DNA of 31,946 bases from a virus. Below are positions 363-31,836 of this stretch, piece by piece (the first letter of the stretch is position 1; each line of letters begins with the position of its first letter). The DNA lies in IMG/VR virus record IMGVR_UViG_3300042295_000418, positions 1-31,946 of that record, one strand, 5' to 3'. A program made the translations under genes and the position numbers. The notes beneath the pieces are model-generated. The model did no database searches. It had not been told where the DNA came from and saw only the letters and a program-made list of their open reading frames with translations.

Positions 363-454
363 ATTTTACATTAACTGAAACACAAACCACAGCCTTCGAC
401 ATGGCGACCAACGGGGACAAAAGAGTTATTGTCTTCGGGGGCGCTATACGATAA
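359..454 (+). CDS. Terminase large subunit, N-terminal piece up to an in-frame stop
   Basis: 31 codons from an ATG that overlaps the small terminase stop. It encodes the adenine-binding start of a large terminase (TETQ near residue 6) and the first half of the Walker A loop, ending VFGGAIR and then TAA at 452-454. The rest of the protein continues in the same frame from 491 (GGKT). Read directly, this is a 31-residue fragment; joined to the downstream part without bases 452-490 it yields an unbroken 425-residue terminase with the Walker A sequence GGAIRGGKT, common in terminases of related phages. See the 39-nt segment entry for the possible mechanism. Confidence 0.7.
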   Translation: MNFTLTETQTTAFDMATNGDKRVIVFGGAIR

Positions 455-490
455 CCGCCCCCGCTCGAAAGTGTGGGGGCAAAGATTCGC
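452..490 (+). other. 39-nt in-frame segment inside terL Walker A; candidate translational bypass or insertion
   Basis: Seen directly: codons ATA CGA (446-451) are followed by TAA, then CC, then a hairpin whose arms are GCCCCCGCTC (457-466) and GTGTGGGGGC (471-480). It has nine pairs including one G-U, one U-U mismatch and a GAAA loop. After AAAG come ATT CGC (485-490), and GGC GGT AAA ACG follows. Both flanks encode Ile-Arg. Upstream CGGGGGC (436-442) can also pair with GCCCCCG (457-463). Inference: a ribosome stalled with Arg-tRNA on CGA before the stop could re-pair on CGC at 488, which the same inosine-containing Arg tRNA reads, giving a 39-nt hop. T4 gene 60 has the same layout of take-off codon, stop, hairpin and landing codon. 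A disabling insertion is the main alternative. Confidence 0.55.
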
Positions 491-1675
491 GGCGGTAAAA
501 CGTATTGGCTTCTATTAACTCTAACTTCGCTTTGTTTAAACTACCCGCGCAGCCGTTGGGCGGTTATTCGTAAGAGCTTACCCGACTTAAAGCGCACCAC
601 GTTCCCGAGCTTTGCCTCAATAATGATGGACGGGGTAAGTAACTACGTTAAGAACTGGAATCGCGAAACAAACGTTATAACTTTTACAAACGGTTCGGAG
701 CTTATGTTTATGGCAGAATCGTTTGACGACGATAAAGACCTAAATCGCTTTCGAGGGTTAGAGATTAACGGCGCGGGCTTGGATGAAGTAAACGAATTAC
801 AGGAGGTAACGTTTTATAAAGTTCAGGAACGAATCGGCAGTTGGAATAAAGCGCACGGTAAACCTCCTATCGTTTGCCTCGCAACGTGCAACCCTGCTCA
901 AAACTGGGTTAAGTCGATTATATACAACCGTTACCGAGAAAACACATTACCCGAACGGTGGGCTTACATACCGAGCCGAATAACCGATAACCCGCACATA
1001 GCGCCCGAATACTTAGATGCGTTAAAAGAATTACCACCTATTCAATACGCTCGATTCGTCGAGGGCGATTGGGATGTATTAGACGACGTTGCTAACCCGT
1101 TCTTATACGCTTGGAGCGACGAAAAGCACATCGACGATAGTGCAACACATAACGCGCACTTACCGACGTTTATAAGCGTCGATTTCAACATTAACCCGTT
1201 ATGCGCTTTGGTTATTCAAAACGTTGGCAGCTCGGCTACCGTAGTCGATGAAATAAAGATAGAGCGAGGCTCGATAGACGCGTTCTGCGATGCGGTCGAA
1301 GCATTGAACATACCAACGGGCTTAATACGCATTACAGGCGACGCAATGGGCAAAGGCGGTACAATACAGGAACGCGATAACTCGAGCGCATACATTCAGA
1401 TTAAACGCCGACTTAAGTTAGCCGATAATCAAATAATTATACCAGCGAACCCGCGCCACGTTAACAGCCGTATTGATTGCAACACGGCTCTAAAGAAACT
1501 CGATATACGCGTTAATAGTAAAAACTGCAAGGGGTTCGTTTTCGACGCGAAGCAAGTACAATGTAACGCGGACGGGCAAATAATAAAGAGCAACCGAAAA
1601 AACATTACGGAGCGTGCCGACTTTTTAGATTGTTTTCGTTACTTTGTAAACGCAATACTTAAACGATACCTATGA
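473..1675 (+). CDS. terL: Terminase large subunit (ATPase-nuclease), main part
   Basis: Packaging motor that pumps DNA into the prohead and cuts it. From GTG at 473 there are 400 codons, although the genuine protein probably begins at 359 and skips 452-490. Visible motifs in this numbering: second half of Walker A, GGKT (7-10); Walker B GAGLDE (100-105) with catalytic Glu; coupling motif ATCNPA (137-142); then an RNase H-like nuclease domain beginning FISVDFN with Asp 237, a second acidic cluster VVDE (257-260), ITGDA near 290 and a final Asp in the ADFLDCFRY segment. Starting only at 473 would remove the adenine-binding region and half the P-loop, so this start is unlikely to give an active motor. 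The stop overlaps the next start. Confidence 0.9.
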   Translation: MGAKIRGGKTYWLLLTLTSLCLNYPRSRWAVIRKSLPDLKRTTFPSFASIMMDGVSNYVKNWNRETNVITFTNGSELMFMAESFDDDKDLNRFRGLEINGAGLDEVNELQEVTFYKVQERIGSWNKAHGKPPIVCLATCNPAQNWVKSIIYNRYRENTLPERWAYIPSRITDNPHIAPEYLDALKELPPIQYARFVEGDWDVLDDVANPFLYAWSDEKHIDDSATHNAHLPTFISVDFNINPLCALVIQNVGSSATVVDEIKIERGSIDAFCDAVEALNIPTGLIRITGDAMGKGGTIQERDNSSAYIQIKRRLKLADNQIIIPANPRHVNSRIDCNTALKKLDIRVNSKNCKGFVFDAKQVQCNADGQIIKSNRKNITERADFLDCFRYFVNAILKRYL

Positions 1676-13679: not shown

Positions 13680-14577
13680 CGAACTGATTAAAAAAAAGAT
13701 TCGGTTATTTGAACAGATACCGAAGGATATGGCAACGAGCGCGGAACGTGCGCAGCTCGACGCGTGGCGAACCGTTGAGCCGTTGCTTCGCGATATGGAC
13801 GTTGATAGCGATGGTAACATAACTCAAACGGATGCCAATATAAACCGCATAGGTTTAATAGCCGACGAACTAAATAAGGTTTTAGCGGGTGGCGAATACA
13901 AGGATGCCGTTTCAAAGTTCCTAACTCAAATTCAAGAAGGCGTTAACCTATCGACTGAAATAGCGCAAAAGTTTGAGGCTGGTTTTGAACCTACCGAAGC
14001 GCAACGGCGTTTAGTTCAAATAAGCCAACAGAACGCAATCAATTCTTTTTTTGGTAGTGGATTAAGACAAGTTGTATCGCAGCCGTTTTTAGAGCAGCTA
14101 ACGGCAAATGTAGCCGCACGAGCGCCACTTAATCAAGCGGTAAAAGCGTTAAGCCAAACGATTATAGGAACTAAAGAAATCGACGGCAAATTATTAAGGA
14201 ATGTTAGAACGGTAGCAAGCACCGCCCAAGCTATCGCAGATAATAGTTATTCGGCTGCAGTTAATGAAGCAATCGGCATACAATGGTTTCAATACTTAGG
14301 AGGCGAAATACCAACTACGCGACCGTTCTGCGAACATAGGCAAGGGCAAATTTTTCACAGGGGCGAAATCGAAGCATGGGGTCGCGGTGAAAATAGCGGT
14401 GGAATAAATGATATTAGAAACGGAACGTGGTCGGGTAGAATAGATAACACCGATGAAAAAACTATATTCGTTAATCGCGGCGGTTGGGAGTGTAGACATA
14501 CTTTAGTACCCGTGCCAGCTTCTAAAGTACCTGAAACGGTTAAGGCTCGCGCAAGGGCTGAGGGTTATATTGATTAG
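13666..14577 (+). CDS. Minor head / head morphogenesis protein (Mu F / SPP1 gp7-like)
   Basis: 303 residues directly after the portal. The C-terminal segment TTRPFCEHRQGQIF (217-230) and GGWECRHTLVPVP (272-284), with C222, H224, C276 and H278, is the typical end of Mu F/SPP1 gp7-type minor head proteins. The N-terminal two thirds are helical. These proteins enter the prohead in few copies and help in capsid assembly or DNA ejection. The gene is followed by a promoter and a small autonomous gene. Confidence 0.85.
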   Translation: MASLDELIKKKIRLFEQIPKDMATSAERAQLDAWRTVEPLLRDMDVDSDGNITQTDANINRIGLIADELNKVLAGGEYKDAVSKFLTQIQEGVNLSTEIAQKFEAGFEPTEAQRRLVQISQQNAINSFFGSGLRQVVSQPFLEQLTANVAARAPLNQAVKALSQTIIGTKEIDGKLLRNVRTVASTAQAIADNSYSAAVNEAIGIQWFQYLGGEIPTTRPFCEHRQGQIFHRGEIEAWGRGENSGGINDIRNGTWSGRIDNTDEKTIFVNRGGWECRHTLVPVPASKVPETVKARARAEGYID

Positions 14578-14609
14578 GGGAAAATATTTTTACTTTTTTT
14601 CTGAAATAG

Positions 14610-14640
14610 TTTGCAGATTCAAAAAGTGTTTATATATTTG
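14610..14640 (+). promoter_or_regulatory. Promoter cassette copy 1 (TTTG-N19-TATATTTG)
   Basis: TTTG at 14610-14613, a 19-base spacer and TATATTTG at 14633-14640 match the Bacteroidetes vegetative promoter. The sequence around the -33 box (AGTTTGCAGATTCAAA) and the A-rich leader ending ACACTTACACAA before the ATG are shared with copies at 16313, 25764 and 31778. It drives the gene at 14670. Confidence 0.85.
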
Positions 14641-14669
14641 TGCTGTTAAACAATCAAACACTTACACAA

Positions 14670-16260: not shown

Positions 16261-16312
16261 ATGCAGTAAATTAAGCATTTACAAAAAAAGTTTAAATAAT
16301 TCTTTGAAATAG

Positions 16313-16343
16313 TTTGCAGATTCAAATAATGTTTGTATGTTTG
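16313..16343 (+). promoter_or_regulatory. Promoter cassette copy 2 (TTTG-N19-TATGTTTG)
   Basis: TTTG 16313-16316, 19-base spacer, TATGTTTG 16336-16343. The flanking sequence AATAGTTTGCAGATTCAAA is almost identical to copy 1, and the leader contains GTTAAACAATTAAACA before the ATG at 16372. Confidence 0.88.
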
Positions 16344-16371
16344 CAGAGTTAAACAATTAAACATTCACACT

Positions 16372-25709: not shown

Positions 25710-25763
25710 GCGCGTTGTAAATCAGCAATTTATAAATTATTTTGCATTTATTTTTGTAAAGGT

Positions 25764-25794
25764 ATTGCAGAATCAAATAAAGGTTGTATGTTTG
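25764..25794 (+). promoter_or_regulatory. Promoter cassette copy 3
   Basis: ATTG 25764-25767, 19-base spacer, TATGTTTG 25787-25794; flanked by TGCAGAATCAAA and the leader GTTAAACAATTACACACTC. It opens the early block after the lysis genes. Confidence 0.85.
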
Positions 25795-25830
25795 CAGTGT
25801 TAAACAATTACACACTCAAAAATTTACACC

Positions 25831-31160: not shown

Positions 31161-31745
31161 ATGGATAAGCGAGATACTTGTATATTTTATCGCTCAATGT
31201 ATGAAGCAATGAGAGAGCTACCTGAAGCTGCGAGGCTTGAATTATATGATGCGATTTTTCTTTATTCACTCGATTTTAAGCTACCCGAGTTAAGCGGTTT
31301 GGCAAAGGCTTTATTTATTGCTTTTGAGCCTGTTTTAACTAAAGGAAATACAAATTACATAAACGGAAGTAAACCGAAATCGAAGCGAATCGAAAGCGAA
31401 ACCGAAGCGAAACCGAAGCGAGTTAAAAGCGAAACGGAAGCCTATAAGGATAAGGATAAAGAGAAGGATAAAAATAAAGATAACGCTAACGCTAACTTTA
31501 AAAAGTGGAGCGAGCAAGATTTGATTGAAGCAATGACACCTTACAAGGATAGATACCCTAAGGAACTTCTAAACGCTTTTTTTAACTATTGGACTGAGCC
31601 GCTTGCAAACGGTAAAATACGTTTAACCTCTCAAGACGCTTGGGATACTGGGCGAAGGTTGGTAACATGGAATAAACGCGACACCGATAAACAACCTAAA
31701 ACCTCAACAGTAACACGCGCCTCGATGGGGCTAAAGATGCAGTAA
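31161..31745 (+). CDS. DUF6291-like replication-associated protein
   Basis: 194 residues from ATG 31161 (MDKRDTCIFYRSMYEAMREL...); an upstream in-frame start at 31089 lies inside the terminator RNA and is rejected. The N-terminal helical domain CIFYRSMYEAMRELPEAARL...LSGLAKALFIAFEP matches the DUF6291 family, found in phage replication regions. A repetitive charged linker follows (KPKSKRIESETEAKPKR; then KDKDKEKDKNKDN), and a C-terminal helical domain (YPKELLNAFFNYWTEP, DAWDTGRRLVTW) resembles the ends of replication initiators or helicase loaders. Regulation by the upstream attenuator is inferred. Confidence 0.7.
   Translation: MDKRDTCIFYRSMYEAMRELPEAARLELYDAIFLYSLDFKLPELSGLAKALFIAFEPVLTKGNTNYINGSKPKSKRIESETEAKPKRVKSETEAYKDKDKEKDKNKDNANANFKKWSEQDLIEAMTPYKDRYPKELLNAFFNYWTEPLANGKIRLTSQDAWDTGRRLVTWNKRDTDKQPKTSTVTRASMGLKMQ
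31371..31440 (+). repeat. Short direct repeats encoding a charged linker
   Basis: Repeats of the type AAGCGAAACCGAAGCG encode E/K-rich linker residues. They could expand or shrink by slippage. Confidence 0.6.
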
Positions 31746-31777
31746 GAAAAAATATTTTTAAAATAATTTAGAAAAAG

Positions 31778-31808
31778 TTTGCAGAATCAAAAAAGAGTTG
31801 TATGTTTG
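31778..31808 (+). promoter_or_regulatory. Promoter cassette copy 4
   Basis: TTTG 31778-31781, 19-base spacer, TATGTTTG 31801-31808; the leader TTAAACACTTACACA precedes the ATG at 31837. Same design as copies 1-3. Confidence 0.88.
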
Positions 31809-31836
31809 CTGCATCAAACTCTTAAACACTTACACA

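Follow-up and report, generated by a model that had tools for sequence, protein, structure and literature searches.

To our knowledge, large programmed ribosomal hops in bacteria and phages amount to essentially one proven case, that of phage T4 gene 60. In this gene a stretch of 50 nt is bypassed in translation, and the gene for an HNH endonuclease, mobA, lies upstream (PMC3014915, PMC5009743, PMC11194080). Even within the T4-like group the hop has been called unique (PMC3014915), and the insert has been proposed to protect against the endonuclease (PMC5009743). In the mitochondria of Magnusiomyces capitatus, short inserts called byp elements are skipped with some tolerance for imperfect codon matching, and a 29-nt hop has been reported for plaA of the Bacteroidota bacterium Prevotella loescheii (PMC5009743). 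A bypass tied to the special UUA codon of the host has been suspected in the terminase of the Streptomyces phage Hau3, and natural in-frame stop hopping has no known occurrences according to the same review (PMC5009743). Apart from the Hau3 suggestion, no prior report of a bypass at the P-loop of the large terminase gene, terL, was found in a literature search that covered few subscription papers. In this account we describe a family of inserts at precisely this position, which, judged by sequence comparison, are likely to be programmed translational bypass elements within the Walker A codons of terL, maintained as immunity to an endonuclease.

The window, which is the whole stretch of DNA analyzed, is a linear virus record of 31,946 bases, and the terminase features described below lie on its plus strand. 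A terS-like (small terminase-like) gene with a DUF5681 match (15-362; Pfam E=1.5e-17) is found directly upstream of terL. The terS stop and the terL start share the bases ATGA, such that terS abuts terL and the slot between them holds no HNH gene. From an ATG at 359, terL runs for 31 codons as ORF1 (359-451; MNFTLTETQTTAFDMATNGDKRVIVFGGAIR), whose last codon is the putative take-off codon. The codons ATA (446-448) and CGA (449-451), together at 446-451, would occupy the E and P sites at take-off, and a TAA stop codon (452-454) adjoins the CGA. After a 6-nt spacer (452-457) comes a hairpin (458-479) with arms at 458-466 and 471-479 and a GAAA loop of the GNRA type at 467-470; each arm has nine positions, comprising eight pairs and one U-U mismatch, and an outer G457-C480 pair closes the stem. 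The sequence AAAG ATT then leads to the putative landing codon, CGC (488-490). ORF2 (491-1675, stop codon 1673-1675) begins with GGC GGT AAA at 491-499, encodes GGKTYWLL followed by the remainder of the ATPase and nuclease domains, and is recognized as a terminase large subunit (PHROG 979, E=4e-25; Pfam Terminase_6N).

The candidate bypassed segment thus spans 39 nt (452-490), made up of a 36-nt gap and the landing codon, and it is absent from 67 un-inserted relatives. An earlier note had drawn attention to this CGA-TAA-hairpin-CGC segment within the P-loop codons; all of the elements that it described are present, and the segment is not an assembly error. The note was also right that deleting 452-490 restores GGAIRGGKT, as joining 451 to 491 gives exactly the P-loop of the un-inserted relatives. 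The Pfam Terminase_6N match of an intact relative starts from residue 26, just ahead of GGAIRGGKT, and the insert accordingly lies within the Walker A loop. The window contains no second copy of the hairpin, even at 3 mismatches, and scans of the window against Rfam and for tRNA and tmRNA gave no match. No sequence relative of TerL was found in the PDB, and structure models of the un-inserted TerL and of the endonuclease discussed below (pLDDT 44 and 53) were too poor for use. Elsewhere, the window harbors an intergenic repeat of about 102 nt in four copies (14563-14664, 16266-16367, 25717-25818 and 31731-31832) that are 66-75% alike; these end just ahead of gene starts and are probably promoter or leader regions.

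Relatives were gathered by searching viral contigs with the ORF2 protein, which gave 80, both inserted and un-inserted, and by two pattern scans, the second with a free landing codon and any NGN take-off; both scans returned the same class of insert. The comparison set comprises 48 distinct insert-bearing and 67 un-inserted terL genes. The earlier note had proposed looking for the same insert in related terminases, and homologues are indeed present in the 48 terL genes, all of them distinct, whose sources span many metagenomes. The window's 33-mer has identical copies in 6 other contigs. Given this recurrence and the single copy of the hairpin in the window, the segment is no product of chance. 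Among identical sites there is neither a clean deletion nor heterogeneous indels, either of which the note held would speak against a bypass. The insert always lies between CGA and a CGN codon, and is 39 nt long in 21 genes, 40 nt in one and 41 nt in 26, so that all three frame phases are represented. ORF1 has a length of 31 codons in every one of the 48.

The codons on either side of the gap are constrained to different degrees. The take-off pair is ATA CGA in 48/48 insert-bearers, whereas in the un-inserted relatives the same arginine codon is CGT (32), CGA (17), CGC (14) or AGA (4), and ATA is found in just 28/67. Between codons -9 and +10 of the insert-bearers, ATA and CGA encode the sole multi-codon residues that are frozen to one codon. 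A CGN landing codon is kept in all 48 insert-bearers, as CGA (20), CGT (15) or CGC (13), and it alone is kept, for the codon ahead of it may be ATT, TTC, TCC, TAA or TAT. The suggestion that the segment is flanked by Ile-Arg codons on both sides is therefore upheld for arginine, in the form of CGN, but not for the isoleucine before the landing site. After take-off the relatives have TAA, TAG, TGG-TAG, TGT-TAG, GGT-TAG, GGC-TAA, or TGG with a stop at codon +8. A stop adjoins the take-off codon in the window and in most 39-nt versions, while many others have TGG or GGN there, their stop following as codon +2 or +8; a sense codon, TGG, occupies the A-site position of many 41-nt versions, in which no stop is reached before codon +8.

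Some other assignments were considered and set aside. A glycine take-off (GGT or GGC with an adjoining stop) is possible for L046, L081 and L137 and would yield the same protein, but it misfits the other loci. Matches of 44 nt (L094 and others) and a 52-nt class (L103 and others) turned out to be unrelated sequence or ordinary un-inserted terL. In a general pattern scan of IMG/VR, those of the matches listed that fell outside terL were terminator-like or non-terL. The TerL proteins found in isolated phages are distant only (<60% identity), with no inserted isolate identified among the subset of P-loops inspected, and 395 Bacteroidota genomes gave no match to the stop-hop or hairpin patterns. 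Two loci, L123 and L156, have extra lesions in ORF2 (TGC to TGA, and a deletion), which are either assembly errors or real breaks.

All versions share a rigid layout, CGA-N6-stem9-GNRA-stem9-N8/9/10-CGN, and the GNRA loop is also present in the hairpins of the distant families described below. Across 20 distinct sequences the stem covariation score is 0.522, against 0.211 when shuffled and <=0.07 in slid controls; 98.9% of the pair cells of the stem are standard pairs, and there are 29 two-sided changes. Folded by itself, the window segment is only modestly stable (z -1.75), and support for the stem comes from this covariation rather than from fold energy.

Both of the flanking reading frames are under purifying selection, with pN/pS among the insert-bearers of 0.29 for ORF1 and 0.22 for ORF2. 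The 41-nt versions bear on how the ribosome comes to read ORF2. In most of these the GGKT frame is closed by a TAA just ahead of the landing codon, with the first ATG, GTG or TTG 7-74 codons downstream. The start-less stretch has a pN/pS of 0.26, and of 0 in RGGKTYW. A stretch that is closed by TAA and lacks a start, yet is conserved as protein, implies that translation enters it without initiation, and re-initiation is thereby excluded as the source of the P-loop in most 41-nt versions. This bears directly on the idea that the gene is split, with ORF1 ending at its stop, ORF2 re-initiated (at GTG 473 in the window) and the two subunits assembling. Split T4-like proteins are on record (PMC2988022), and most 39-nt versions do have an in-frame GTG within the insert, which would give VGAKIRGGKT; however, GCG replaces this GTG in some of them (L014, L020 and L133), the class of 6-nt inserts introduced below is likewise without a start codon, and re-initiation would lose the first glycine of the P-loop along with strand beta-1. 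We regard a split gene as very improbable. By comparison of the genes, the element, its geometry, the codon constraint, the covariation, the frame independence and the coding constraint are established, and the bypass reading of the earlier note has survived each of the comparative tests available, namely frame independence, the frozen ATA CGA, the CGN landing and the covarying hairpin.

The insert frequently has a particular neighbor. In many insert-bearers an ORF of 174-196 aa with NUMOD4 and HNH_3 domains is located between terS and terL, its last codons overlapping the terL start; in L269-L277 the C-terminal end of the endonuclease, YAIYAN-stop, is encoded in another frame within the first ~20 nt of terL. 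In those loci whose upstream DNA is long enough, an HNH gene is found upstream in 20/37 inserted and 0/60 un-inserted close relatives. Over all families the figures are 29/69 and 0/106, leaving 40/69 inserted loci without the gene; the corresponding Fisher p of 2e-14 ignores the relatedness of the loci and, as these are phylogenetically related, is not a true probability. Conversely, every close homologue of the HNH protein with a visible terL adjoins an inserted one. The insert also has its own pattern of inheritance. Mapped onto the protein tree of ORF2, the presence of the insert requires 22 changes, of which well-supported branches force at least 11, whereas the 84-nt ORF1 tree, which has few columns and low support, requires 2, with all insert-bearers except L132 in one clade. 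The comparison of these trees indicates that ORF1 and the insert travel together, as a cassette that recombines with different ORF2s at the P-loop. Both the association with the HNH gene and this cassette-like inheritance are established by comparison. The insert of L132 is of the same type, although the ORF1 there is divergent. L132 and L273, where ORF1 is divergent, have a second copy of the initial ~20 nt of terL directly upstream of the gene (ATGGCCTTCAGTTTAACCAAATAA...ATGGCCTTCAGCTTAACCAAGC), possibly as a scar of recombination or of loss of the endonuclease gene. As for the alternative raised in the earlier note, that the segment is a mobile GC-cluster, mobility is borne out, in a cassette with ORF1 and the HNH gene, but a free GC cluster is not. 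The mutual exclusion of the HNH gene and un-inserted terL, taken with the trees of ORF1/insert and ORF2, suggests that the endonuclease cuts the un-inserted allele only.

There is one terL per record of ~35 kb, and the near-complete records hold no second intact copy, a finding that, coupled with an absence of any full-length terminase peptide, would according to the earlier note refute its proposal. A 34.6-kb contig with a 127-nt end repeat, which indicates that it is circular, has as its sole terL a 41-nt version with an intact ORF2 of 395 codons. The 52,227-base contig G014 bears two terL genes (L013 and L016) ~35.7 kb apart, one inserted and one not, and is probably two related genomes joined in assembly. 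Gene content of this kind is difficult to reconcile with dead or transient alleles, that is, scars of endonuclease cleavage that inactivate terL and are sustained by complementation. Such scars would account for the several insert sizes and for a position that coincides with the presumed cleavage site, but the complete genomes carry the inserted copy only, the hairpins covary, and the inserted lineages stand at saturated synonymous distance with an ORF2 pN/pS of 0.05-0.26. We consider it extremely unlikely that the inserts are of this type. The bypass reading is further favored by coding constraint on both sides, by the single terL per genome and by putative stop-hop inserts at the same boundary.

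These last were encountered in other TerL families. A search with the endonuclease led to L343, whose terL is 44% identical and is interrupted at this very codon boundary by 42 nt. The site there reads ATA CGA TGATTA, an 11-bp stem with a GUAA loop, and then AGT GGT GGA. A relative of this terL, L387, has 41 nt, with ATA CGA TTTTAA, a 10-bp stem, a GCAA loop and then AGA GGT. The two hairpins are unrelated but have the same geometry. Three distant lineages have AGA, AGT or AGC immediately before the putative point of resumption, codons that match CGA at only two positions. Much shorter inserts are also found. L372 and L373 have a 4-nt insert, ATA CGA CAGC GGC GGT, with P-loops at about 2478 and 859 and an HNH signal upstream, and this appears to be a minimal +1 version; L430 has a 7-nt insert at the same boundary together with an HNH gene. 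Five contigs among the relatives of the L343 terL have the arrangement CGN-STOP-CGN, and a dedicated scan raised the number of distinct terL loci with this 6-nt insert to 32, in several TerL families and with TGA, TAG or TAA as the stop (terL P-loops of L417, L421, L423, L433, L439 and L443-L481). The match in L457 lies outside terL and is due to chance, and TGG and AGN flanks, which the pattern allowed, were absent from the terL matches. Pairs of the stop-hop genes have an ORF2 pN/pS of 0-0.23, reflecting purifying selection. A single codon boundary therefore harbors inserts of 4, 6, 7, 39, 40, 41 and 42 nt, with putative landing in any frame.

This range of lengths bears on two further explanations. 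In the first, the insert is removed from the RNA as a minute intron, excised and religated by an RNase and a ligase. The inserts are precise and frame-independent and occupy a homing site, a common location for introns, and the landing codon of some distant families matches at only 2 of 3 positions. However, the inserts of 39-42 nt, with a single hairpin, are far below the size of self-splicing introns, have no group I or II core and no Rfam match; those of 4, 6 and 7 nt, at the same site and with the same HNH association, are too short to be introns at all; and splicing would leave the frozen ATA CGA, the stop codons and the CGN ahead of the 3' boundary unexplained. Removal at the RNA level is thus quite improbable. 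In the second, which concerns mainly the 6-nt class, the stop codon is read through or recoded, adding residues to the P-loop. The 6-nt inserts are frame-preserving and flank one stop codon, but close relatives have TGA, TAG and TAA alike, and all three serve as terminators of genes in the contigs. Furthermore, inserts of 40 and 41 nt do not preserve the frame, and the G-x4-GK[TS] motif would be broken by any extra residues. There is accordingly very little chance that readthrough is responsible.

In the mechanism that we propose, the ribosome would make the 31-residue ORF1 peptide and pause with CGA in the P site. An arginine tRNA with inosine at position 34 reads CGA, CGC and CGT, with CGA read through a purine-purine pair, so that release at CGA would be favored. 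The landing codons CGA, CGC and CGT are the three that such a tRNA would read. The take-off CGA would be held by the weak I-A pair, with a stop or some other codon in the A site and, 6 nt past the CGA, the start of a hairpin capped by a GNRA loop. The peptidyl-tRNA would then detach, the mRNA slide by ~36 nt in the window or, in close relatives, by 36-38 nt, and the tRNA re-pair with CGN, reading resuming at GGC GGT AAA to give GGAIRGGKT. Short gaps would need only a stop, whereas a hairpin and an invariant ATA CGA accompany the long ones. In ORF1, which is short and whose conservation is explained by coding constraint, no equivalent of the KKYK nascent-peptide signal of T4 was identified. This counts against the scheme, as do the two-position matches of AGA, AGT and AGC, the sense codon TGG in many 41-nt versions, the inserted loci that lack an endonuclease gene and the extra ORF2 lesions of L123 and L156. 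The hopping itself, its efficiency, the tRNA and the site of cleavage are those parts of the scheme that we infer.

By analogy with T4, the inserts are probably a form of immunity to the neighboring homing endonuclease. The insert would break the target site of the NUMOD4/HNH enzyme, probably the P-loop codons themselves, and would persist because that site is broken; endonuclease, ORF1 and insert would spread jointly as a homing cassette, with some genomes, including that of the window, having kept the insert after loss of the endonuclease. We think it reasonably likely that the TerL P-loop codons are a recurrent endonuclease target and that bypassable inserts of varied design, comprising hairpin hops (39-42 nt), stop hops (6-7 nt) and a 4-nt +1 hop, evolved repeatedly as immunity. 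If true, these inserts would form a natural class of elements for ribosome hopping and would include the first stop hops known from nature, and many terL genes of metagenome phages would be misannotated as broken or split. A variant family of dozens, with covarying hairpins, three phases and stop hops, would allow comparative dissection of the requirements for hopping, and would make testable the idea that bypass elements originate as immunity to homing endonucleases.

Among the known systems, the Hau3 case also concerns a phage terminase but, as described, is attributed to the UUA codon and not to an insert with a hairpin and an endonuclease. The plaA hop is in a cellular adhesin gene, was not followed up and has no known link to a homing endonuclease. 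The byp elements are mitochondrial, occupy 81 sites in many genes and are reported to be independent of mRNA context, whereas the terL inserts are found at one boundary of one gene with a rigid RNA geometry. The 6-nt CGN-STOP-CGN inserts would be the natural form of the synthetic stop hops of E. coli, in which matched codons surround a stop; unlike these, they occur in nature, are conserved and lie within an essential gene. The nearest known system is T4 gene 60. In both, a take-off codon, putative in terL, is followed by a tetraloop hairpin and a matching landing codon, with a stop next to the take-off codon in the window and most 39-nt versions; the gap is frame-independent, interrupts an essential enzyme gene and is absent from relatives; and an HNH homing endonuclease gene lies just upstream (in 29/69 inserted terL loci, the window not among them). 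No sequence homology between the two inserts was found. The terL insert is placed exactly at the P-loop, would hop from CGA to CGN rather than from GGA to GGA, has a gap of 36-38 nt, a hairpin 6 nt downstream that leaves the take-off codon outside it, and no recognized nascent-peptide signal, unlike the demonstrated one of gene 60. Whereas T4 gene 60 stood alone, the terL inserts form a whole family of variants across phages, and they appear to be an independent and much more widespread parallel to the mobA/gene 60 arrangement of T4.
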